From an uncultured Lachnospiraceae bacterium (GTDB lineage: Bacteria > Bacillota > Clostridia > Lachnospirales > Lachnospiraceae), in assembly GCA_930972465.1 (NCBI GenBank), contig CAKNHF010000007.1, positions 35,964-99,963 on the forward strand: a DNA stretch of 64,000 nt. Direction: 5' to 3'. Made by a program: the position numbers and the translations under genes. Each line of letters begins with the position of its first letter. The first letter of the stretch is position 1. This document shows, one piece after another, positions 40,699 to 52,174 of the stretch. The notes beneath the pieces are model-generated. The model was given only the letters and a program-made list of their open reading frames with translations. It was not told the DNA's origin and made no database searches.

Positions 40699-40854
40699 AT
40701 GGATGAAGGACGTAAGAAAATATGGATATGCCTTCTGATCATTGTGCTTGCGGCCGTAGTGATCGGAATTCTCTATTATCTGAGCGCCCCGCAGCAGGGG
40801 AACAGCGAGGGATTTCTCATAATGGCTCCGGAGGTGGAGCGGTATGCCGGCTGA
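40699..40854 (+). CDS. 51-aa single-pass membrane protein between sigF and spoVAA
   Basis: A short protein (starts MDEGRKKIWICLL, one helix through ICLLIIVLAAVVIGILYYL, ends VERYAG). AAAGGTGAAC precedes the ATG at 40699, and the stop overlaps the spoVAA start by 11 bases, which argues for coupled translation. It is too short for standard gene-finding thresholds. A role in sporulation is inferred from position only. Confidence 0.65.
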   Translation: MDEGRKKIWICLLIIVLAAVVIGILYYLSAPQQGNSEGFLIMAPEVERYAG

Positions 40855-41515
40855 CAGGGTTACTCTTTATATCAAAGGGGACAGGGATATAGAGGTGAAA
40901 AAGCAGGAGGTTACACTGGGAGATATCCTGACCATGGAGTGCAGCGACAGAGCAATGCTGGCGCGTATAAAGCCGCTGAAAATTCTTAAGATACAGAAGC
41001 AGGGGAAGCAGCGTTTTGTTGTATCCGTATTGAAGATCATCTCCTGTATTCATGAAAAGTATCCGAATGTTGAGGTTCAGAATCTGGGAGAGACGGATAT
41101 AATCGTTACCTTTGAAGATCAGAAGACTCCGGGAAAACTGTGGCATGTGCTGAAGGCGGCATTTGTGGCGGTAGTCACTTTCTGCGGCGCTGCATTCTCA
41201 ATTATGGCATTTAACAATGACATAGACGTGACAAAACTGTTCGGACAGATGTACGAGCTTGTGACGGGACGGGAGACAGACGGGTTCACAATCCTGGAGA
41301 TCACATATTCCGCAGGCCTGACGATAGGCATACTGATCTTTTTCAATCATTTCGGAAGGCGCCGCTTTACCGAGGACCCCACGCCTATGGAGGTGCAGAT
41401 GCGCCTCTATGAAAACGATATCCAGACAACCCTGGTAGAGGATGCGGCGCGGAAAGGAGAGGAGATCGATGTGGGAATGGGCAGCACAGGCGGTTCTGGC
41501 GGCCGCAGGCCTTAG
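40844..41515 (+). CDS. spoVAA: Stage V sporulation protein AA
   Basis: A 223-aa protein of the SpoVA channel operon, which moves dipicolinic acid into the forespore. The cytoplasmic N terminus (about 1-100) begins DRVTLYIKGDRDIEVKKQEVTLGDI. Then a membrane helix (about 108-126, FVAVVTFCGAAFSIMAFNND) and a second at about 150-166 (ITYSAGLTIGILIFFNHFG), and RRRFTEDPTPMEVQMRLYE, which is a typical SpoVAA segment. It overlaps spoVAB by 47 bases. Confidence 0.92.
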   Translation: MPADRVTLYIKGDRDIEVKKQEVTLGDILTMECSDRAMLARIKPLKILKIQKQGKQRFVVSVLKIISCIHEKYPNVEVQNLGETDIIVTFEDQKTPGKLWHVLKAAFVAVVTFCGAAFSIMAFNNDIDVTKLFGQMYELVTGRETDGFTILEITYSAGLTIGILIFFNHFGRRRFTEDPTPMEVQMRLYENDIQTTLVEDAARKGEEIDVGMGSTGGSGGRRP

Positions 41516-41891
41516 CGCGGGGGTTGCGACTGCGGCGGGACTTTTTTCCTTTGTCGTTGAGCTGGGCGTGGTGGCCGATTTTGCGGACAGGACACACACA
41601 GCGGAGCATATTCTTTTCTATGAAGACTGTGTGGCTCTGGGCGGCATTGTGGGGAATATTCTGTATGTGTTTCATATCGGAATACCTCTGGGGACGCCCC
41701 TTCTCGCTGCATTCGGAGCTTTTGCCGGGATTTTCGCGGGCTGCTGGGCCATGGCGCTGGCGGAGATACTCAATGTGTTTCCCATATTTATGCGGAGGGC
41801 GAAGGTGGTCAGATATCTGAGTGCGTTTATCATAAGCATGGCTCTTGGAAAAGGCTTGGGAGCTTTTCTCTTTTTCTTCCGCAGATGGTAA
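41469..41891 (+). CDS. spoVAB: Stage V sporulation protein AB
   Basis: A 140-aa polytopic membrane protein with three or four helices: AAQAVLAAAGLSAGVATAAG, a middle ALGGIVGNILYVFHI, GAFAGIFAGCWAMALAEILNVFPIFMRR (cited in pieces) and a last helix. The frame opens at 41442, but AAAGGAGAGGAG is spaced for the ATG at 41469. In other spore formers spoVAC follows directly; here it is on the opposite strand. Confidence 0.9.
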   Translation: MWEWAAQAVLAAAGLSAGVATAAGLFSFVVELGVVADFADRTHTAEHILFYEDCVALGGIVGNILYVFHIGIPLGTPLLAAFGAFAGIFAGCWAMALAEILNVFPIFMRRAKVVRYLSAFIISMALGKGLGAFLFFFRRW

Positions 41892-41921
41892 GGAAATGTG
41901 CATACGATATGAAAATAATAT

Positions 41922-41957
41922 GGGGCAGGTGTGACTCTCATGAATCACACCTGCCCC
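41922..41957. terminator. Long hairpin between convergent spoVAB and spoVAC
   Basis: A 13-bp perfect stem (41922-41934 with 41945-41957) and a 10-base loop. In the minus direction it is followed by TATTATTTTC, so it mainly serves the spoVAC transcript. Confidence 0.65.
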
Positions 41958-41977
41958 TGAAACTGTGATGCGGAATC

Positions 41978-42352
41978 TTATTTCACCAGCGTCCAGATCC
42001 AGTACAAAAAACCGAGAGCCCAGCTGGTAAATATACCGTAGAGGATGACCGGACCGGCGATGGTGAAGATCTTGCAGCCGATGCCGAAGACCTGTCCTTC
42101 CTTCTTGTACTCAATGGCCGGGGCGGCCACAGAATTGGCAAAACCGGTGATAGGCACCAGAGCTCCGGCGCCTCCCCATTTGGCAAGTTTCGGATAGATG
42201 CCGGTCCCGGTGAGCAGTATGCTCAGCAGCACAAGGATCAGGGAGGTCCAGCTGCTGCATTCGTCTGCGGAAAGCCCCTGTATCTCGCAGATGTGACTGA
42301 TAACCTGTCCGATGAGACAGATGGCGCCTCCGAGAAAGAAAGCCTTGACCAT
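41978..42352 (-). CDS. spoVAC: Stage V sporulation protein AC, inverted, 5' end probably disrupted
   Basis: A minus-strand membrane protein with the SpoVAC landmarks KAFFLGGAICLIGQV, GGAGALVPITGFANSVAAPAIE and FTIAGPVILYG. From the ATG at 42352 it is 124 aa, about 30 short of the family, and that ATG has no ribosome site. In-frame codons above it still read like the family N terminus (TDKIQKLKHQKQ, EEYVKTKTPRHNVW). A good AAAGGAG with ATG lies at 42447-42445, but in a different frame; one extra T in the TTTT run there would join the two. So either a one-base deletion, a sequencing error or a rare start codon is involved. Its orientation, opposite to all other spoVA genes, is unusual. Confidence 0.85.
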   Translation of the reverse strand: MVKAFFLGGAICLIGQVISHICEIQGLSADECSSWTSLILVLLSILLTGTGIYPKLAKWGGAGALVPITGFANSVAAPAIEYKKEGQVFGIGCKIFTIAGPVILYGIFTSWALGFLYWIWTLVK

Positions 42353-42447
42353 GTTGAGCCAGACATTGTGCCGGGGGGTCTTTGTCTTTACGTATTCTTC
42401 ATACTGTTTCTGATGTTTCAGTTTCTGTATTTTATCCGTAAAATCAT

Positions 42448-42608
42448 CTCCTTTCAGAAAGTTCCGGTATGCAAACCGGTCTGAAAATAGTATCCGGAAT
42501 ATCTGACGGAATATACCGTATGCTGAAAAATATTCCAGATATGTATATTTACGGAGCCGGGAGAAGATACTAACGGAAAAAGCAGCATAAGAAATGAGGA
42601 TGAGGACT
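42448..42608. other. Divergent intergenic region of spoVAC and spoVAD
   Basis: About 160 bases of AT-rich sequence serving both genes. A forespore-type (sigma G) promoter is expected for spoVAD, but I find no convincing match; GTATG near 42518 followed 18 bases later by ATGTATA is only a weak candidate. Confidence 0.4.
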
Positions 42609-43619
42609 ATGGATCAGGTAAAAGGAAGCCAGAGCATCGTGTTTTCCAGCGCTCCGTATATTATAAGCACGGCATCGGTGGCGGGGAGCAAGGAGGCGGA
42701 AGGGCCTTTGGGAAAACTATTTGATATGACGAATCAGGATGACCTGTTCGGTGCGCAGACATGGGAAGAGGCAGAGAGCAATATGCAGAAAGAAGCCTGT
42801 GTGCTGGCTTTGGGAAAAGCGCATATCAGAGCGGAGGAGGTGCGATATCTGTTTGGAGGAGATCTGCTGAGACAGGGGATCGCCACATCCATGGGAGTGG
42901 AAGCGCTTCAGATCCCCATGTTCGGGCTGTACGGCGCATGTTCCACGTCCGGCGAGGCGCTGGCGCTGTCTTCTATGAGCGTTGCGGCAGGATACGGGGA
43001 ATATATGCTTGCCGTCACATCGAGTCATTTCGGCAGCGCGGAGAAAGAATTCCGTTTTCCGCTGGGATATGCCAGCCAGCGGCCGCTTTCCGCGCACTGG
43101 ACAGTGACCGGCAGCGGCGCTTTCGTTGTGGGAACGAGGAAGACTCACGTGAGAGTTTCAGGCGTTACGGTGGGCAGGATCGTGGACTACGGGCTGAAGG
43201 ATTCGCAGAACATGGGAGCATGCATGGCTCCTGCGGCAATGGATACGATCGTGCGGAATTTCAGAGATCTGGGACGGTGTGAGGACGATTACGACAGAAT
43301 CGTCACAGGGGATCTGGGATATGTGGGACAGTCTATCCTTCTCGATCTTGTAAAGGGACAGGGGTATGATATACGGAAGAAACATATGGACTGCGGCATG
43401 ACAATTTTTGATCAGGAGACGCAGGATACCCATGCCGGAGGCAGCGGCTGCGGCTGTGCGGCAGTGACACTGGCATCGTTTATACTGCCGAAGATCGAGA
43501 AGGGAGAGTGGAAGAGAGTGCTGTTTGTCCCTACGGGGGCTCTCATGTCCACTGTAAGCTTCAATGAGGGCGCCAGTATCCCCGGGATTGCCCACGGAAT
43601 TGTGCTGGAACACTGCTGA
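42609..43619 (+). CDS. spoVAD: Stage V sporulation protein AD
   Basis: A 336-aa thiolase-fold protein of the SpoVA complex that binds dipicolinic acid. It begins GSQSIVFSSAPYIISTASVAG, then shows GLYGACSTSGEALALSSMSV around the former thiolase active site, VTSSHFGSAEKEFRFPLGYASQRP, DLGYVGQSILLDL, and GGSGCGCAAVTLA. Several M codons lie at the start; GAGGA eight bases before 42609 decides it. The length is normal. Confidence 0.94.
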   Translation: MDQVKGSQSIVFSSAPYIISTASVAGSKEAEGPLGKLFDMTNQDDLFGAQTWEEAESNMQKEACVLALGKAHIRAEEVRYLFGGDLLRQGIATSMGVEALQIPMFGLYGACSTSGEALALSSMSVAAGYGEYMLAVTSSHFGSAEKEFRFPLGYASQRPLSAHWTVTGSGAFVVGTRKTHVRVSGVTVGRIVDYGLKDSQNMGACMAPAAMDTIVRNFRDLGRCEDDYDRIVTGDLGYVGQSILLDLVKGQGYDIRKKHMDCGMTIFDQETQDTHAGGSGCGCAAVTLASFILPKIEKGEWKRVLFVPTGALMSTVSFNEGASIPGIAHGIVLEHC

Positions 43620-43699
43620 TGCCGGCGAGGAGAAGAGAAAACCGCGGGGCTGAACGGGAAAGATCCGGCAGGGGATGCCGGGAAGAGGAGGAGAAGGAT

Positions 43700-44056
43700 A
43701 TGGAATATATCGTATCATTTATAACAGGAGGACTGATCTGTGCACTGGTGCAGATTCTTCTGGACCGGACAAAACTGATGCCCGGCAGGGTTATGGTACT
43801 GCTGGTGTGTACGGGAGCCGTGCTGGGATTCTGCGGGATTTATGAGCCGTTCAAGGAGTTTGCAGGATCCGGGGCAGGAGTCCCGCTGCTGGGATTCGGC
43901 AGCACTCTGTGGCAGGGAGTGAAAGAAGCGGTGGATGAGAACGGATTCATCGGGATGTTCATGGGCGGATTCAAGGCCAGCGCCGTGGGGATATCCGCCG
44001 CGCTGATCTTCGGATATCTGGCATCGTTTGCATTTGATCCGAAGATGAAGAAGTAA
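43700..44056 (+). CDS. spoVAE: Stage V sporulation protein AE
   Basis: A 118-aa membrane protein with three to four helices. It has the family pattern ITGGLICALVQILLDRT, LGFCGIYEPFKEFAGSGAGVPLLGFG, and GFKASAVGISAALIFGYL. The frame is open from 43619, but GAGGAGGAGAAGG fits the ATG at 43700. Related in fold to SpoVAC. It ends the spoVA group. Confidence 0.92.
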   Translation: MEYIVSFITGGLICALVQILLDRTKLMPGRVMVLLVCTGAVLGFCGIYEPFKEFAGSGAGVPLLGFGSTLWQGVKEAVDENGFIGMFMGGFKASAVGISAALIFGYLASFAFDPKMKK

Positions 44057-44281
44057 AATGGGGAGTTTACAAATTCTGGAAGAGATCCCGGCATATATGA
44101 CTTCCACATCTGCCAGAATGATGGAGGAGATACTGAAGAATTCTTTGATAAAAACATACAGAAAAGCGGTGGAGGCGCGTTCACCGGAGGAGAAGAAAGG
44201 ACTGCTGACAGATTTATAGAAGCCGGAGCGGATAAGGTGGTTTACACTATGGAAGATCTCAGAGACTTTCTTCCGGGATAG
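44057..44281 (+). pseudogene. Start-less coding remnant after spoVAE
   Basis: A 74-codon frame begins right after the spoVAE stop, in the same frame, with no ATG before its last 15 codons. Its translation looks protein-like, especially SGGGAFTGGEERTADRFIEA and DKVVYTMEDLRDFLPG, so it may be the 3' end of a lost gene. A competing 53-aa frame (44058-44219) has an ATG but no ribosome site. I recognise neither. Confidence 0.35.
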
Positions 44282-44324
44282 AAAAACAACGGTTGATTTT
44301 AATAAGAATACGGCATGATTTCGG

Positions 44325-44365
44325 GCCCTGATTTGTGCAAAACGGCGTAAATCAGGGCTTTTCTT
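44325..44365 (+). terminator. Terminator after the spoVA region
   Basis: A 10-bp perfect stem (44325-44334 with 44349-44358), 14-base loop, then TTTTCTT. Confidence 0.75.
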
Positions 44366-44368
44366 CAC

Positions 44369-44423
44369 TTTACACAGATTTAACATTCTCCTGATTTTAC
44401 ATTTAACATTTCTCTTTTATGAT
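44369..44423 (+). promoter_or_regulatory. PhoP-box-like repeats and -10 element of the pst operon
   Basis: Two pairs of TTTACA/TTAACA repeats: 44369-44374 and 44380-44385 (5-base gap), then 44396-44401 and 44403-44408. A -10 box TATGAT follows at 44418-44423. In Bacillus, PhoP binds TTAACA-like repeats spaced by 5 bases. The regulator encoded at 48809-49483 is the obvious candidate. Confidence 0.7.
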
Positions 44424-44482
44424 GAATACCGTGATCAAAAACAACACACAATAATCGAAATTGAAAAAGGAGATTATCAAAA

Positions 44483-45382
44483 ATGAGAATGAAAAAGTTT
44501 ATCGCGATTTTATCAGTAGTGAGCATGATGGCAGTTGCTGCAACAGGATGCGGCAGCAGCTCTGACGATGCGGCACAGGGAGGCAGCGACGCGTCAGGTT
44601 CTGACTGGGATGCAGCAAGCTCTATTACAGTAGTATCCCGTGAGGAAGGTTCAGGAACAAGAGGAGCTTTCACAGAGCTGTTCGGCGTTGTAGATGAGAA
44701 CGACAACGATATGACAACACTTGACGCTCAGGTTACAAACAACACATCTGTTATGATGACAACAGTATCTGAGAACGAGTATGCGATCGGATACATATCT
44801 CTGGGATCTCTGGACGAGTCTCTTGTAAAGGCAGTGAAAATCGACGGAGCTGAGGCTACAGCAGAGAACATTGAGAACGGATCCTACAAAGTGTCCAGAC
44901 CGTTCAATGTAGCGATGAAACCGGATCTTGACAATGCAGTAGCTACAGACTTCATGGCATTTATCATGAGCACAGAGGGACAGCAGGTTGTTGCTGACGA
45001 GGGATACATTCCGGTATCTGACGTACAGGCTTACGCAGGCGAGGCTCCGGAAGGAAGCTGCGTAGTAGGAGGATCTTCTTCCGTATCTCCGCTGATGGAA
45101 AAACTGATCGAAGCTTACGGTGAGGTCAACCCGAACGGAAAGATCGAGCTGCAGACATCTGATTCCACAACAGGTATGACATCTGCGATCGAGGGAAGCT
45201 ATGACATCGGTATGGCATCCAGAGAGCTGAAAGAGGACGAGGCTTCACAGCTTGAGGGAACAGTGATCGCTACAGATGGTATCGCAGTGATCGTAAACCA
45301 GGCTAACCCGACAGATGATCTGTCAGTAGATCAGGTAAAATCCATCTATCTTGGAGATGTGACAACCTGGGATGCAATCTAA
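44483..45382 (+). CDS. pstS: Phosphate-binding lipoprotein PstS, circularly permuted
   Basis: A 299-aa phosphate ABC-transporter binding protein anchored outside the membrane. The signal peptide ends AATGCGS (lipid cysteine 23). The mature protein starts with what is normally the second half of PstS: VVSREEGSGTRGAF (50-63), AIGYISLGS, SRPFNV and DEGYIPV (172-178). The normal first half follows at 193-299: VVGGSSSVSPLMEKL, STTGMTSAIEG, DIGMASRELK, DGIAVIVN and GDVTTWDAI. All phosphate-binding motifs are thus kept, in swapped order. AAGGAG precedes the ATG. First gene of the Pst operon, with PhoP-box-like repeats upstream. Confidence 0.93.
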   Translation: MRMKKFIAILSVVSMMAVAATGCGSSSDDAAQGGSDASGSDWDAASSITVVSREEGSGTRGAFTELFGVVDENDNDMTTLDAQVTNNTSVMMTTVSENEYAIGYISLGSLDESLVKAVKIDGAEATAENIENGSYKVSRPFNVAMKPDLDNAVATDFMAFIMSTEGQQVVADEGYIPVSDVQAYAGEAPEGSCVVGGSSSVSPLMEKLIEAYGEVNPNGKIELQTSDSTTGMTSAIEGSYDIGMASRELKEDEASQLEGTVIATDGIAVIVNQANPTDDLSVDQVKSIYLGDVTTWDAI

Positions 45383-45452
45383 TCAGAACAATACGGACTG
45401 AGAGTACAACACAGAGTGATTTTTAAAGTGAAAGACTTTCCGCTTTGAATTT

Positions 45453-45489
45453 ATGAGCCGGGCAGATACATGGCATCTTCCCGGCTCAT
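45453..45489 (+). promoter_or_regulatory. pstS-pstC intercistronic stem-loop
   Basis: A 10-bp perfect stem (45453-45462 with 45480-45489), 17-base loop and no U-run. It stands directly before the pstC ribosome site (AGGAGG at 45491-45496). This position suits a structure that protects the pstS message so that the binding protein is made in excess. Confidence 0.6.
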
Positions 45490-45501
45490 TAGGAGGAAAA
45501 A

Positions 45502-46395
45502 ATGAAATCAAAAGCATGGACTGAAAAATTCATGCAGGGAGTGTTTTTCGTTGCCGCGTGCGCATCCGTGCTGGCGGTAGCACTCATTTGTATCTTCCTG
45601 TTTGCAAATGGTATCCCTGCAATGAGCAAAATCGGATTTGTTAAATTTATTACAGGAACGCAGTGGCGTCCCAACAGCGAGATGTTCGGAATACTTCCGA
45701 TGATTGTAGGAAGTCTTTATGTGACTGCGGGAGCAATCATTTTCGGAGTTCCGATCGGAATCCTGACTTCTGTATTCATGGCGATGTACTGCCCGAAGCA
45801 GATCTATAAACCGCTGAAGGCTGCGACAGAACTCCTTGCCGGAATTCCGTCGGTTATCTACGGCTTCTTCGGACTGGTAGTGGTCGTACCGCTGATCCGC
45901 GAGTTCGGAACCGCGCTTCACAGCGCCGGAATCGTTAAGAATCCGGGAAACGGAAACAGCATCCTGACCGCGTCCCTGATCCTCGGCATGATGATTCTGC
46001 CGACTATCATCGGAACTACAGAGAGCGCGATGCGCGCGGTTCCGTCCCATTATTATGAAGGTTCTCTTGCACTGGGAGCCACGAAGGAGAGAAGTATTTT
46101 CCGTGTTATTATCCCGGCTGCAAAATCGGGAGTGATTGCAGGTATCGTGCTGGGAATCGGCCGTGCCATCGGAGAGACCATGGCGGTTATCATGATCGTC
46201 GGAAACCAGGCGCGTCTTACATCCAGCATTCTGGACGGTATCCGTACCCTTACCGGAAACATTGTAATCGAAATGGGATATGCGACCGGCCTGCACCGTG
46301 AGGCGCTGATCGCTACGGGAGTTGTTCTCTTTGTATTTATCCTGATTATCAATTTAAGTGTAGCACTGTTAAAGAGGGGGGCAGATCATGAGTAA
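45502..46395 (+). CDS. pstC: Phosphate ABC transporter permease PstC
   Basis: A 297-aa inner permease with six helices. It contains FITGTQWRPNSEMFGILPMIVGSLYVT, LAGIPSVIYGFFGL, and the ABC-coupling EAA-like loop ALGATKERSIFRVIIPAAKSG with GRAIGETMAVIMIVGN (cited as landmarks). AGGAGG precedes the ATG. It overlaps pstA by 8 bases. Confidence 0.95.
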   Translation: MKSKAWTEKFMQGVFFVAACASVLAVALICIFLFANGIPAMSKIGFVKFITGTQWRPNSEMFGILPMIVGSLYVTAGAIIFGVPIGILTSVFMAMYCPKQIYKPLKAATELLAGIPSVIYGFFGLVVVVPLIREFGTALHSAGIVKNPGNGNSILTASLILGMMILPTIIGTTESAMRAVPSHYYEGSLALGATKERSIFRVIIPAAKSGVIAGIVLGIGRAIGETMAVIMIVGNQARLTSSILDGIRTLTGNIVIEMGYATGLHREALIATGVVLFVFILIINLSVALLKRGADHE

Positions 46396-47248
46396 TAAAA
46401 TGACTTTCGGTGACAAGTTCAGAACTTATCTGAAACACCCGGGCTCATTCATTGTGATGCTGCTCGTAATGCTTGCGTCGATCATTACCTTTGCCGTGCT
46501 GATCTTCCTGATCGCATATATCCTGATCAACGGACTTCCGCATATCACACCGTCTCTTTTCTCACTGGAATATACATCTGAGAATGCTTCGGTTGTGCCT
46601 GCGCTGGTCAATACGATTATTATGACACTTCTGTCACTGCTGATTGCAGTGCCGTTCGGAATCTTTTCCGCGATTTTCCTTGTGGAGTATGCGTCCAGAG
46701 GCAACAAATTCGTGGAAGTGATCCGGCTGACGACAGAGACGCTTTCCGGTATTCCTTCTATCGTATACGGTCTGTTCGGCATGCTGTTCTTTGTCAATGC
46801 GCTCGGCTGGGGATTCTCCCTGCTGGCCGGTGCCTTCACCATGGCGATCATGATCCTTCCGCTGATCATGAGGACCACCGAAGAAGCCCTCAAGGCGGTG
46901 CCGGATTCATTCCGTGAAGGAAGCTTCGGACTTGGAGCAGGAAAGCTTCGTACCGTATTCCGCATCGTGCTTCCGTCCGCGATTCCGGGCGTTCTTGCAG
47001 GTGTGATCCTGGCCATCGGACGTATCGTGGGCGAGACGGCTGCTCTGATGTACACATCAGGTACAGTGGCACAGATTCCGGACAGCATCATGGGATCCGG
47101 ACGTACGCTGGCGCTTCATATGTATAATCTGTCCAGCGAGGGTCTTTACATGGATCAGGCATACGCGACGGCAGTCATTCTGCTGGTCCTTGTAGTGGGA
47201 ATCAATGCATTATCAAGTGTAATCGCAAGAAAACTTACAGCAGTATAA
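46388..47248 (+). CDS. pstA: Phosphate ABC transporter permease PstA
   Basis: A 286-aa second permease with six helices. Landmarks are VPALVNTIIMTLLSLLIAVP, AIFLVEYA, LSGIPSIVYGLFGM, the coupling loop GLGAGKLRTVFRIVLPSAIPG, and GRIVGETAALMYTSG. The start overlaps pstC; AGAGGGGGG lies before the ATG. Confidence 0.95.
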   Translation: MSNKMTFGDKFRTYLKHPGSFIVMLLVMLASIITFAVLIFLIAYILINGLPHITPSLFSLEYTSENASVVPALVNTIIMTLLSLLIAVPFGIFSAIFLVEYASRGNKFVEVIRLTTETLSGIPSIVYGLFGMLFFVNALGWGFSLLAGAFTMAIMILPLIMRTTEEALKAVPDSFREGSFGLGAGKLRTVFRIVLPSAIPGVLAGVILAIGRIVGETAALMYTSGTVAQIPDSIMGSGRTLALHMYNLSSEGLYMDQAYATAVILLVLVVGINALSSVIARKLTAV

Positions 47249-47268
47249 AATCATGAAAGGGTAAAGAA

Positions 47269-48018
47269 ATGTCAAAGATAAGTATCAAGAATCTTGATTT
47301 GTATTACGGGGATTTTAAAGCTCTTAAGAATATAAATCTTGAGATCGAACCGAATAAGATCACCGCTTTTATCGGACCTTCCGGCTGCGGTAAATCTACT
47401 CTTCTGAAGTCCATCAACCGTATGAACGACCTGGTAGAGGGCTGCCGCATTGAGGGCGAGATCCTTCTTGACGGCGAAAATATTTTCACGGGAATGGACG
47501 TAAACTTATTAAGAAAACGTGTCGGAATGGTATTCCAGAAACCGAATCCGTTCCCCATGAGCATCTATGACAACATCGCATACGGCCCCAGAACACATGG
47601 CATCCGCTCTAAGGCAAAACTGGACGACATCGTGGAGAAATCTCTGAGAAACGCGGCAATCTGGGATGAGTGCAAAGACCGTCTCAAGACCAGTGCGCTG
47701 GGCATGTCAGGCGGACAGCAGCAGAGACTCTGTATCGCGAGAGCTCTTGCGGTAGAGCCGGAAGTGCTGCTTATGGATGAGCCCACCTCTGCGCTTGACC
47801 CGATTTCAACTTCCAAGATCGAAGACCTTGCGATGGAGCTCAAGAAAGACTATACTATTGTCATGGTTACACACAACATGCAGCAGGCAGTCCGTGTATC
47901 CGACAACACAGCATTCTTCCTGCTGGGTGAAGTTGTAGAGTACAATGATACGGAAAAACTCTTCTCAATACCGTCAGATAAGAGAACAGAAGACTATATC
48001 ACAGGGAGGTTCGGTTAA
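47269..48018 (+). CDS. pstB: Phosphate ABC transporter ATPase PstB
   Basis: A 249-aa ATP-binding subunit. Walker A is GPSGCGKST at 36-44, followed by the PstB-typical [10 protein letters not shown]; then [18 protein letters not shown], signature [17 protein letters not shown], Walker [13 protein letters not shown], and [14 protein letters not shown] precedes the ATG. phoU starts at the very next base after the stop. Confidence 0.96.
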
Positions 48019-48690
48019 ATGCGTAATAAGTTTGACGAGCAGCTTCATCTTCTGGATGAGCAGCTCACACAGATGGGAGAGCTGTGCGAGACAGCCATTG
48101 CAAAGACAACAAAGGCGCTGGAGAGCAGCGACCGTGATCAGGCGAGAGTCATAATTACAGAAGATGAGGAGATTGACCAGCTCGAGAAAGATATCGAGAG
48201 ACTGTGCCTGAAGCTTCTGCTCCAGCAGCAGCCGGTGGCAAAGGATTTAAGAAGAATTTCCGCAGCTCTGAAGATGATCACGGATATGGAGCGTATCGGA
48301 GACCAGACTTCTGATATCGCCGAGATCATCCTGTCTTCCAAAGACTGGGCTCCGGCGGACAGCGATATACATGTCATCGGAAAGATGGCGTCCGAGGTCA
48401 GCAAGATGGTGCGCAACAGTGTAATCGCATATGTCAAGAAAGACCTTGAGCTGGCCCGTGATGTCATGAGAGCGGACGACGCGATTGACGAGTACTTCGA
48501 AGAAGTGCGCGACGAGATGATTGCTTTTATCAAAGAAGAAAAAGGAGAGAACGGAAAGAAGATTTTCGATCTCATCATGGTTACAAAATACCTTGAGCGT
48601 ATCGGCGACCATGCAACAAATATTGCTGAGTGGGTGGAATTTTCCATCACCGGCGTGCACAAGGACAGTGCGATCATACACGAGAGCTGA
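48019..48690 (+). CDS. phoU: Phosphate signalling protein PhoU
   Basis: A 223-aa all-helical cytoplasmic protein with two PhoU repeats. The acidic metal-binding motifs are DEEIDQLEKDIE in the first repeat and ADDAIDEYFEEV in the second, with ALKMITDMERIGDQTSDIAE and TKYLERIGDHATNIAEW as the paired helices. It restrains PhoR signalling when phosphate is plentiful. GGGAGG lies before the ATG. Confidence 0.95.
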   Translation: MRNKFDEQLHLLDEQLTQMGELCETAIAKTTKALESSDRDQARVIITEDEEIDQLEKDIERLCLKLLLQQQPVAKDLRRISAALKMITDMERIGDQTSDIAEIILSSKDWAPADSDIHVIGKMASEVSKMVRNSVIAYVKKDLELARDVMRADDAIDEYFEEVRDEMIAFIKEEKGENGKKIFDLIMVTKYLERIGDHATNIAEWVEFSITGVHKDSAIIHES

Positions 48691-48699
48691 TAGACTGCG

Positions 48700-48726
48700 G
48701 CCGGCTGATAAAGCCGGCTTTTTAAA
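48700..48726 (+). terminator. Terminator of the pst-phoU operon
   Basis: A 7-bp stem (48700-48706 with 48712-48718), loop GATAA, then TTTTTAAAA. Confidence 0.75.
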
Positions 48727-48808
48727 AAAGAAAATAATGCCGGTCCGGGGAAAGCGCCAGGCTTTCTGCGGACTATGTTAAATATAGAAGAGAAGGAGAA
48801 CTTATGAG

Positions 48809-49483
48809 ATGATATTTTGTGTTGAAGATGACGATAATATCCGTGAGCTTGTGATATATACGCTGGAAACGACCGGACTTAAGGCCAGGGGGTTTGCGGA
48901 CGGAGCCGCTTTTATGGAAGCTCTGGCGTTCGACACACCGGAGCTGATTCTGCTTGATATCATGCTGCCCGGCGACGATGGGCTGGAACTGCTTAAGAAA
49001 CTGAAGTCCTCCTCGAAAACAAAGGGAATCCCGGTCATTATGGTGACCGCAAAAGGATCGGAATATGACAAGGTAGTGGGGCTTGATTCAGGGGCGGACG
49101 ACTATGTCACGAAGCCCTTTGGCATGATGGAACTGGTTTCAAGGATCAAAGCTGTGCTGAGACGCAGCGGGAAAGTGGAGGACCGGATCGACATGGACAT
49201 CTCAGGAGTTCATGTCAACGTGAAAAAGCATGAGGTTACCGTAAACGGGAAAGAAATATCTCTGACATTAAAGGAATTTGAGCTCCTGGAGAAGCTGATG
49301 AGAAATCAGGGAATTGTTCTTACAAGAGATCAGTTGCTGGCGGAGATCTGGGGATATGATTTCGACGGGGAGACCAGGACCGTTGATGTACATATCCGGA
49401 CACTGCGCCAGAAACTGGGGGACAAAGGTGAGATCATACAGACGGTTCGCGGAGTCGGCTACCGCGTAGGGGGAGCTGCATGA
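48809..49483 (+). CDS. phoP: Phosphate-responsive response regulator, PhoP/PhoB type
   Basis: A 224-aa OmpR-family regulator. The receiver domain has the acidic pocket EDDDN, the phosphorylated Asp50 in LLDIMLP, TAKGSEYD and the KPF lysine. The C-terminal winged helix has LTLKEFELLEKLMRNQG and VDVHIRTLRQKLG. The nearby pst operon is the likely target. An ATG at 48804 is followed at once by a stop, so the start is 48809 with AAGGAG upstream. It overlaps the kinase gene by 4 bases. Confidence 0.9.
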   Translation: MIFCVEDDDNIRELVIYTLETTGLKARGFADGAAFMEALAFDTPELILLDIMLPGDDGLELLKKLKSSSKTKGIPVIMVTAKGSEYDKVVGLDSGADDYVTKPFGMMELVSRIKAVLRRSGKVEDRIDMDISGVHVNVKKHEVTVNGKEISLTLKEFELLEKLMRNQGIVLTRDQLLAEIWGYDFDGETRTVDVHIRTLRQKLGDKGEIIQTVRGVGYRVGGAA

Positions 49484-50838
49484 GAAACAAGATCCATAAG
49501 AGCATGATGCTCATACTGGCAGTCACCCTTCTGCTGTTCTACGCGCTGCTTGCGATGATCCTGTACAACAGAAATATATCCATTCTGGAATCCGAAGTGA
49601 AGCAGGAAGCACATTATATTCAGGCGGCTGTCAACATAACCGGCGCGGAATACCTTGAACAGATGGGAGATGCCGACAGAAATACAAGGATAACATGGAT
49701 AGGAAAAGACGGAGAAGTATTCTACGACTCAGAGGAGGACAATGAGTCCCTTGAAAATCACAGCGGAAGAAAAGAAGTGCGTGAGGCACTTGCGAACGGC
49801 GAGGGAGAAGAGGTCAGGATGTCGGACACACTTGGGGAGGAACTCTACTATTATGCGGTTCTTCTCGACGACGGGAGCGTCCTGCGTGTGGCGCGGTCAA
49901 TGGACGGGCTTATAAGAATCGCGGTCGGCGTGTTCCCGGTGATGGCGGTACTGGCGGTATTGATGATGCTCCTGGCTCTGGCTCTGGCCACATGGCAGAC
50001 CAAACGCCTGATCAAGCCGATCAATGAGCTGAATCTGGAACATCCGCTTGACAATGATATATATCCTGAACTCACCCCTCTTCTGCAGGCAATGGACAGG
50101 CAGAATAAGGAAAAAGAGGCTGTGTCGAACATGCGCAAAGAGTTTTCTGCCAATGTATCTCATGAGTTGAAGACGCCTCTTACTTCCATCTCCGGATATG
50201 CTGAGATCATGAAGAACGGGATGGTGCGTCCGGCAGACATTCCCGTTTTTTCAGAACGCATATACAAGGAGGCGAGGCGGCTGATCCATCTTGTGGAAGA
50301 TATCATCAAGCTGTCCAAACTGGATGAAGAATCGGTAGAGCTGGAAAAAGAAGATGTCAATCTGTATGAGCTCACAAGAGAAGTCGTGAGCCGGCTTTCT
50401 CCCCAGGCTTCCCAGAAAAATATCCGGATGGAAGTCACGGGAGAACCTGTGATGTACAAGGGGATACGTCAGATTCTTGATGAGATGGTATACAATATCT
50501 GTGAAAATGCGGTCAAGTACAACAATGACAACGGACGTGTATCCGTCTGGGTGGGGGATACGCTGGATGGTGCGAAGATCAGTGTGTCCGATACCGGGAT
50601 CGGAATTCCGAAAGAGCATCAGGAACGGATTTTCGAACGGTTTTACCGGGTGGACAAGAGTCACTCGAAAGAGCGCGGCGGAACCGGTCTGGGGCTGTCC
50701 ATCGTCAAACACGGCGCGATCCTTCACGGGGCAAAAGTAACAGTGGAAAGCGAATCCGGGAAGGGAACAAGGATGGAGATTCATTTCCCGAAAGAGCAGC
50801 AGGCAGAGACCGGCGGAAGCACAGACGGACGGTCATGA
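49480..50838 (+). CDS. phoR: Phosphate-responsive sensor histidine kinase, PhoR type
   Basis: A 452-aa membrane kinase. Helices at about 9-29 and 145-170 frame an extracellular sensor of about 115 residues. A short linker leads to the dimerisation helix with His228 in FSANVSHELKTPL, then the ATPase domain: N box YNICENAVKYNND, G1 VSDTGIGIPKEHQ, F box RIFERFYRVDKS, and G2 GGTGLGLSIVKH. It would phosphorylate the regulator at 48809-49483. Terminated by the hairpin at 50861-50908. Confidence 0.9.
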   Translation: MRNKIHKSMMLILAVTLLLFYALLAMILYNRNISILESEVKQEAHYIQAAVNITGAEYLEQMGDADRNTRITWIGKDGEVFYDSEEDNESLENHSGRKEVREALANGEGEEVRMSDTLGEELYYYAVLLDDGSVLRVARSMDGLIRIAVGVFPVMAVLAVLMMLLALALATWQTKRLIKPINELNLEHPLDNDIYPELTPLLQAMDRQNKEKEAVSNMRKEFSANVSHELKTPLTSISGYAEIMKNGMVRPADIPVFSERIYKEARRLIHLVEDIIKLSKLDEESVELEKEDVNLYELTREVVSRLSPQASQKNIRMEVTGEPVMYKGIRQILDEMVYNICENAVKYNNDNGRVSVWVGDTLDGAKISVSDTGIGIPKEHQERIFERFYRVDKSHSKERGGTGLGLSIVKHGAILHGAKVTVESESGKGTRMEIHFPKEQQAETGGSTDGRS

Positions 50839-50860
50839 AAATATCGGAAAACATTGGAAC

Positions 50861-50912
50861 AAAAGACGTGACACATATTGGTTATGAACCGTATGTGCCG
50901 CGTCTTTTTGTC
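50861..50912. terminator. Bidirectional terminator between phoR and the LacI remnant
   Basis: Arms 50861-50877 and 50892-50908 pair over 17 positions with one G-U pair and one mismatch. A-rich on the left and T-rich on the right, so it can act in both directions. Confidence 0.7.
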
Positions 50913-51480
50913 TATGCGGGATGGAAACGCGACGGCACTACGACATGCTTATCCTTCCGACCGGAAAGAATGGAGGATATCAGTTCCTGGATACATGTCT
51001 GTGCGATCTTCGGGATATCCTGTTCTATGTAGGAGATGCGCGGATCGCCGGGATAATCAAATGCGGCGATCTCATAACGGTCCCACATGCGGCAGGTGGT
51101 CAGAAGGGAGCTGATATGCCTTGTAATCTCCTGATTGACACAGAACAGTCCGTCTGTTTCGGGATGATCGTACAGATACTCGAGCAGGAGTTCTTTTTTT
51201 CTTCGAGGCGAGGTGACTTCAAGATCAATGAAAAAAATGCCGTCGGATGGAACCGGAAGCCCTTTTTCCGAGAAGGCGTCACGATATCCTGCCAGCCGGT
51301 CCGAAGTGACCGTATTATGGCTTCCAGGAGAGAGAAACGCGGTGTGAAGACAGCCCTTGTCAATAAGATACTTTACCGCCTCCCGTGTGATCTCATAGTT
51401 ATTAGTATAAATGCAGCTTGAGCGGATTCCCTTCAGATACCGGTCCACCAGGACGAACGGAAAATCCGTCAGATTGAGCT
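50912..51480 (-). pseudogene. LacI-type regulator remnant (ligand-binding domain only)
   Basis: A minus-strand fragment of about 189 codons matching the C-terminal sugar-sensing domain of LacI/GalR regulators: FPFVLVDRYLKGI, TNNYEITREAVKYLIDKGC, DRLAGYRDAFSEKGLPV, and DPRISYIEQDIPKIAQ. The N-terminal helix-turn-helix and the first third of the sensor domain are gone. The frame stays open further to 51784, but that part is only the antisense of the GH2 fragment and no longer looks like a regulator. It stops at a point where GH2 homology begins on the other strand. Confidence 0.75.
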
Positions 51481-52174
51481 TCAGGATATGCTGGGAATGC
51501 TTGTGTGGGAGGAAATGCCTTCTGCCTATGAGTTCTGGGACGGGGGAGTGAGAGAAATTGCGGATACCTGCCTTGAGATGGTGGAGAGAGACTATAACCA
51601 TCCGTGTATTATTACCTGGGTTCCGTTTAATGAAAGCTGGGGGATCAGGGATGTGCTCTGGGACCGCCGGCAGCAGGCGTTTGCGGAGAGCATGTATCAT
51701 CTGATACGCTCCGTGGACGACACAAGGCTTATCAGTACCAACGACGGATGGGAGGCTGTGAGAACGGATATCATAGGAATCCATGACTATGAAAACAGGG
51801 GCTCTGTCCTTGCGGAGAAATATGCGGACAGGGAGAGACTGATTAAGATGAACGCGGTGGACAAGATGGTGCTGAGCAGGGGAATGGAATACGGGGGAGA
51901 GCCGGTGCTGCTCTCGGAATTCGGAGGTTTTGCAATGGAGGACGGCAGCGAGGTGTCATGGGGGTATCATGAGAAGCTGAAAGGACCGGAGAAGCTGCTG
52001 GAGAAGATAGAGGAACTTCTGGAAGCGGTGGATCATATCCCCTACCTGTTCGGATGGTGCTATACGCAGCTGACAGATGTGGAGCAGGAGACAAACGGAC
52101 TCCTCAGCGCAGACAGGAAACCGAAAGCCGATATGGACAGGATCCGTGAAATGATAACGGGAAGACAACGCTGA
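51479..52174 (+). pseudogene. Glycoside hydrolase family 2 remnant (C-terminal catalytic half)
   Basis: About 231 codons of a GH2 beta-glycosidase. LGMLVWEEMPSAYEF, TWVPFNESWG with the acid/base glutamate, GIHDYEN, and LLSEFGG with the nucleophile are present. The sugar-binding and immunoglobulin-like N-terminal domains (several hundred residues) are absent. There is an ATG at 51488, but no ribosome site and no complete domain, so a functional enzyme is unlikely. The 3' end and the terminator after it are intact. Confidence 0.78.

Follow-up and report, generated by a model that had tools for sequence, protein, structure and literature searches.

A circularly permuted PstS heads the pst operon of an uncultured Lachnospiraceae bacterium

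The stretch of DNA analyzed here, called the window at its whole length of 64,000 nucleotides, comes from contig CAKNHF010000007.1 of an uncultured Lachnospiraceae bacterium (assembly GCA_930972465.1, 64 contigs, 86% complete). Positions 44483-45382 of the window hold a pstS gene whose product carries the two halves of an ordinary PstS in swapped order, with these parts:

44483..45382, plus strand: pstS, circularly permuted phosphate-binding lipoprotein of 299 residues, ATG start (open reading frame, profile, phmmer, rotation scan)
44483..44551, plus strand: signal peptide with lipobox (AATGC) and lipid anchor Cys23 (sequence; lipobox pattern)
44621..45025, plus strand: residues about 47-181, the second half of an ordinary PstS (ITVVSREEGSGTR ... 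GYIPV) (phmmer; lobe hidden Markov model, HMM)
45026..45055, plus strand: residues about 182-191, linker between the former C and N termini (rotation scan)
45056..45379, plus strand: residues about 192-299, the first half of an ordinary PstS (VVGGSSSVSP ... GDVTTWDAI) (phmmer; lobe HMM)

The lipobox was searched with a pattern that we take to describe this motif. An earlier note, made from the sequence alone, had described the protein as a PstS with second-half motifs first and first-half motifs last, and every motif that it quoted was found in that order. In phmmer searches of the PDB, residues 47-178 align to positions 119-245 of 4q8r and residues 192-297 to positions 5-111. The ordinary PstS chains 4q8r, 4gd5 and 1twy all match as two swapped halves, and 4h1x matches colinearly in one stretch (residues 41-299, E 1.9e-55). 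Rotation scan and lobe HMM agree on the circular permutation. The break point was placed by the same note in the loop between G-x-x-T-x-W and the VVSRE strand, where it is also put by phmmer, lobe HMM, motif positions and rotation scan.

For the rotation scan, the mature protein was cut at every third position, and at every position near the peak, and compared with four canonical PstS of the same phylum, each with 50 shuffles as the null. Linear scores were 265-280 and best rotations 477-508, against shuffle maxima of 56-74, so chance is excluded as the source of the permuted order. The optimal cut fell at residues 177-187 for three canonical partners and at 181-197 for the fourth, which is the join of the old ends. 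Rotation gained almost nothing in a control of canonical against canonical PstS (645 to 647), and the unrotated score was the best (714) when two permuted proteins were compared. Scan and controls rule out a linear PstS with a wrongly placed start. The earlier note had named two outcomes that would speak against it, and neither occurred: linear alignment did not give the standard lobe order, the N-half-then-C-half arrangement of the PstS family being absent, and the fold predicted for the protein corresponds from end to end to that of a solved phosphate-binding protein. The predicted structure has the same fold as the permuted PstS of the 4H1X kind over its whole length, and the best-matching structures are PstS.

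Family profiles see the protein as two pieces. The best PF12849 stretch is C-terminal (residues 186-297 to profile 5-124 of 267), as is the best TIGR02136 stretch (residues 192-297 to profile 40-153 of 295). In the host genome, PF12849 positions 123-267 match contig 7 at 80569-80940 and positions 5-127 match downstream, at 81001-81345. The permutation is easy to overlook because such profile matches report two PstS stretches. The PF12849 score of 113.1 bits exceeds the cut-off of 27. The TIGR02136 total of 186.5 bits stays below its cut-off of 206.6 and counts against assignment to PstS; it is low because the match is split in two.

The phosphate-loop motifs (GSSS..P, DS..G, DIGMASRE and SRE.GSGTR) are all in place, in both lobes and aligned to solved canonical PstS, and 49 permuted proteins keep them with little or no variation. 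Together with the structure model and the colinear 4H1X match, they support a retained fold and phosphate site, phosphate binding being predicted. The polypeptide starts at what is a second-lobe loop in an ordinary PstS and runs through the old second half, a short linker and the old first half. In the type II binding-protein topology an ordinary PstS ends in lobe 1, lobe 1 being made of two segments and lobe 2 of one. The permuted chain would have its ends in lobe 2 and lobe 1 in one piece, so that the lipid anchor would tether the protein by lobe 2 instead. The swapped order may also alter the way in which the lobes meet the PstCA permease, as the note suggested. A longer tether was sought but not seen: among proteins with a recognizable lipobox, 51 permuted and 25 canonical ones have the same median of 20 residues between lipobox and core. 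An F/W-D before the VVSRE strand and a W near the C-terminal end were considered as a candidate remnant overlap of the two ends. The positions differ, with F or W at -11 before the Arg in 38 of 67 permuted proteins and W at -15 in 32 of 32 canonical ones (seven proteins without the motif pattern were skipped).

The same note placed this lobe order in other Lachnospiraceae too and held it to be probably inherited rather than an error. The order does occur there, and the distribution found is wider. Genome counts given here were taken from search matches and are lower bounds; lobe order was checked at the level of open reading frames in one set of loci. The near-genome sample, counted by hand, comprised 41 genomes, 25 of the same genus (the host included) and 16 others of the order. 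Inheritance is borne out by full-length colinear matches in 21 of the 25. The remaining four comprise one partial match (G013), two genomes with only distant canonical PstS (G002 and G007) and one without a match (G023). Three of the 16 other genomes had a full-length permuted match. Distant, long-branch canonical PstS of the same genus lie at L020, L021 and L022 (from G002, G007 and G004), G004 having both kinds.

In the family sample (299 genomes, one per genus), 88 genomes match at E <= 1e-50 the model of a divergent permuted subfamily, here called B, a model that also catches the main permuted group; about three in ten sampled genera carry permuted PstS. In the class sample at least 74 of 391 genomes, spread over 36 family groups, show one match that covers the two lobes in permuted order; G109 and G286, with partial matches that span the join without both ends, were left out. 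The phylum sample (398 genomes, hand count) gave at least 14 with a permuted match, two tandem fusions left out. The best 80 of 551 named loci found with a permuted query comprise 54 Lachnospiraceae and 77 Bacillota by NCBI ranks, two having no ranks and one being a Mailhella metagenome-assembled genome that may be misbinned; all 80 are permuted because the query that selected them was.

Among the open reading frames of the redundant locus set, 170 have the order C-N, 38 N-C and four N-C-N-C (two genes fetched twice), and six are fragments. The next recognized pst gene downstream is pstC in 150 of the 170 C-N cases, and 17 have no downstream pst gene in the locus. Two adjacent permuted pstS genes lie upstream of a single pstCAB-phoU set at L181:4380-6261 and L182:4227-6220. 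A second permuted gene, broken by a stop, lies beside histidine kinase and response regulator genes at L199:7487-8440 (also L086). Locus L105 has a permuted PstS on an 11-kb contig of a Mailhella (Desulfovibrionaceae) metagenome-assembled genome, which may reflect transfer or misbinning.

The permuted form probably arose once. After a tandem duplication, the copies would have fused in frame and had their outer halves trimmed away, and the product would then have spread through Bacillota with the pst operon. Trees were built on PstS with the lobes put in common order. In the larger one, 65 of 68 permuted proteins group together, with one long-branched canonical protein, L026. Holding all permuted proteins of this set as one clade gave a higher likelihood (approximately unbiased, AU, test p 0.857). 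In smaller sets a single clade was not rejected either (AU p 0.314, or 0.49 without L175). The PstC neighbors of permuted PstS were usable in 51 of the 68 cases. Together with the PstC of L026 they make up one starred group, to which the neighbors of L175, L158 and L176 also belong; operon linkage alone would give such a grouping. Several observations weigh against a single origin. L175 and the pair L158/L176 fall outside the main permuted group of the larger tree, on long branches. In the smaller tree the starred group holds 20 of 23 permuted proteins and leaves out L158, L175 and L177, L175 is placed within a starred group of canonical proteins, and a single permuted clade appears in none of 200 bootstrap trees.

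Living genes resemble the step expected half-way. In G770 and G729 (a single 3.8-Mb contig), two genomes of one genus, PstS copies 74-75% identical are fused head to tail in frame (N-C-N-C) into proteins of 531 and 544 residues. These genes, L156 (=L173:3632-5224) and L157 (=L174:3850-5481), head pstC-pstA-pstB-phoU. The single match spanning both lobes that each of them gives is a false "permuted" match and was left out of the counts. G807, a third genome of this family, has a frame of ordinary size (359 residues) with one match per lobe. The fusions are not supported as direct ancestors, since their four copies form a starred group of their own among canonical PstS; they are the form expected half-way to permutation, arisen separately, and so an analogue of the intermediate.

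A rival reading has the permutation arising repeatedly, at one and the same loop, in different PstS lineages (L175 at the least, and perhaps L158/L176). It draws on the placement of L175 within a canonical group in the careful tree and of L158/L176 outside the main group in the larger one, and the tandem fusions in present-day genomes show the initial step to be repeatable. However, the AU tests do not reject one clade, the three outlying proteins are long-branched, and their PstC neighbors fall in the permuted-linked group. We consider recurrent origins unlikely, a second origin for L175 being possible, and the simplest reading is a single origin, after which the permuted gene spread along with its operon.

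The genes and signals around pstS in the window are:

44369..44385, plus strand: Pho-box-like direct repeat TTTACA-CAGAT-TTAACA with a period of 11 bp, lying 98-114 bases upstream of the ATG (pattern scan)
45453..45489, plus strand: predicted RNA hairpin in the pstS-pstC gap, with an outer stem of 10 bp, immediately ahead of the pstC ribosome-binding site (folding)
45502..46395, plus strand: pstC (TIGR02138, 298.8 bits, cut-off 196.45)
46388..47248, plus strand: pstA (TIGR00974, 281.4 bits, cut-off 193.45)
47269..48018, plus strand: pstB (TIGR00972, 418.4 bits, cut-off 343.2)
48019..48690, plus strand: phoU (TIGR02135, 211.4 bits, cut-off 130.25)
48809..49483, plus strand: OmpR/PhoB-type response regulator (Response_reg, Trans_reg_C), with a Pho role suggested by position
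49480..50838, plus strand: histidine kinase (sCache_like, HisKA, HATPase_c), with a Pho role suggested by position

The permuted pstS thus heads a complete pstSCAB-phoU set followed by regulator and kinase on one strand, the operon context of the PstS family. TTWACA-N5-TTWACA has a single match in the window against 0.03 expected, for a pattern picked after seeing the sequence. The Pho box 5' of pneumococcal pstS1 is given as TTTACACAATCTTTACA in PMC4913102. From this one repeat, pstS transcription is probably under Pho control. The whole pstS-pstC stretch, 45383-45501, folds at -32.5 kcal/mol (z -3.33, none of 200 shuffles as low). Hairpins between binding-protein and permease genes often allow an excess of binding protein, and by analogy this one may do so. 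Promoter and terminator scans of 44000-51000 gave no excess over shuffles (11 against 7.7 and 5 against 5.2). At 50912-52174, a LacI-type regulator piece (minus strand) overlaps the C-terminal piece of a family 2 glycosyl hydrolase (plus strand); both look truncated, and a deletion junction is possible. Upstream, the spoVA genes at 40844-44056 have a SpoVAC/AEB-type frame (41978-42352) on the minus strand and SpoVAA and SpoVAD on the plus strand.

We are confident that the gene encodes a working phosphate-binding lipoprotein of the high-affinity PstSCAB importer in circularly permuted form, an explanation in which sequence and structure model predict the binding. It is the only PstS found in the host genome (86% complete). 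The second PF12849 match there heads a different ATP-binding cassette (ABC) set and looks like a tungstate binder. The solved relative is informative on function. In pneumococcus, encapsulated cells are reported to require Pst1 or Pst2 (Zheng and others, PMC4913102), pst1 is induced by low phosphate, initial uptake at 200 uM phosphate is about twofold lower in a pst1-phoU1 deletion (PMC4913102), and SP_2084-8 are assigned to Pst1 (PMC6722419). SP_2084, the 4H1X protein, is called "pstS 2" in the PDB and Pst1 PstS in PMC6722419. Since SP_2084-8 are Pst1 there, the PDB-named "pstS 2" belongs to the low-phosphate-induced system. SP_2084 is thus part of a system with measured uptake, and transport is therefore the best reading for the window gene.

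A role mainly as an extracellular phosphate sensor acting with PhoU and the downstream kinase, with little transport, would fit the regulator and kinase genes directly downstream and the lack of pstC in all 12 fetched subfamily B loci. It is nonetheless very improbable for the first gene of a complete pstSCAB-phoU set that is the only PstS found in its genome, and the Pst1 system holding the permuted SP_2084 has uptake phenotypes. Drift of the ligand to another oxyanion is less probable still, given ligand-loop motifs common to canonical PstS of the PDB, including 4gd5 (bound phosphate by its title), and the pst operon with its Pho-box-like context. An assembly or annotation artefact, in which a rearranged contig or wrong start makes an ordinary PstS look permuted, could appeal to the 64 contigs and 86% completeness of the genome but is already refuted, with a negligible chance of being right, by the same order in 21 of 25 congeneric genomes (G017 a single contig), in named records that come from separate assemblies, and in a solved crystal.

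Subfamily B is found in 12 of 299 family genomes (matches above 359 bits; the same 12 built the model). G844 is intermediate at 292.6 bits, a broken gene beside a kinase and regulator pair. The subfamily retains the phosphate motifs. No pstC was found in the 12 loci (5.7-9 kb). In nine of them (L193, L194, L196, L197, L200, L202, L204, L205 and L206) a Na+/inorganic phosphate (Pi) cotransporter gene with PhoU adjoins on the same strand, at most 80 bases away or overlapping by open frame; Pfam identified it in eight and phmmer in L205. The other three are L198, L203 and L207. Four of the 12 loci have a polyphosphate kinase gene, and in the fetched L198 locus neither that gene nor a cotransporter gene was found. 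No cotransporter match occurred in 38 canonical N-C loci, of which 15 are shorter than 3.6 kb. The host genome has one Na+/Pi cotransporter gene, on another contig.

We propose tentatively that permuted PstS is an old, separate class with its tether on the other lobe, and that subfamily B left the ABC importer for a Na+/Pi cotransporter with a PhoU domain; as a whole, this is more doubtful than probable. The shift of the anchor between lobes is deduced from strand order and the general type II topology. Eight permuted pst operon loci (L017, L018, L073, L075, L082, L095, L112 and L113, two of them from one species) weigh against too special a view of the pairing: they have a cotransporter gene in the fetched stretch together with PstCAB, so phosphate genes cluster generally. 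The papers listed by a literature search for a pairing of binding protein and Na+/Pi cotransporter were unrelated by title. If true, the pairing would add another type of secondary transporter that depends on a binding protein, next to the tripartite ATP-independent periplasmic (TRAP) and tripartite tricarboxylate transporter (TTT) systems.

Among the closest known systems, SP_2084 of Streptococcus pneumoniae (PDB 4H1X) is a colinear full-length match from another organism. Canonical PstS (4q8r, 4gd5, 1twy) have both lobes, the ligand motifs and the operon context in common with the window protein, with up to 47.9% identity once the lobes are in common order. They differ in chain order, the termini and lipid anchor of the window protein lying, as we deduce, in lobe 2 and not lobe 1. 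TpMglB-2 of Treponema pallidum is a natural circular permutant among the lipid-anchored ABC binding proteins, and Gram-positive gut bacteria have relatives of it; the authors of that study offer anchoring as a possible reason for the permutation and propose a subclass marked "c" (PMC4990184). It has a type I glucose-binding fold and differs from the window protein in break point and family. The type I sugar-binding model was absent among the six Pfam families listed in a general scan, and no direct comparison with TpMglB-2 was made. OpuAC of Bacillus subtilis (PDB 2b4m), a betaine binder with 11% identity, fits too loosely for a claim of kinship.

No paper mentioning 4H1X was found in the literature searched (subscription journals lay outside the search). 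Papers with both PstS and circular permutation deal, by title, with phages, with a virome and with a prophage-carrying Edwardsiella strain. The fold, the role and one solved member were thus already known; the class, with its breadth, its history and a second partner, seems undescribed. A permuted PstS has been in the PDB, yet no discussion of it was found in the literature searched. For the docking of a binding protein on its permease, the family is a natural experiment in which the tether would sit on the other lobe. It also bears on the way in which permuted proteins originate, since genes for tandem-fused PstS survive today. Its Na+/Pi-cotransporter branch makes a new binding-protein partnership directly testable.
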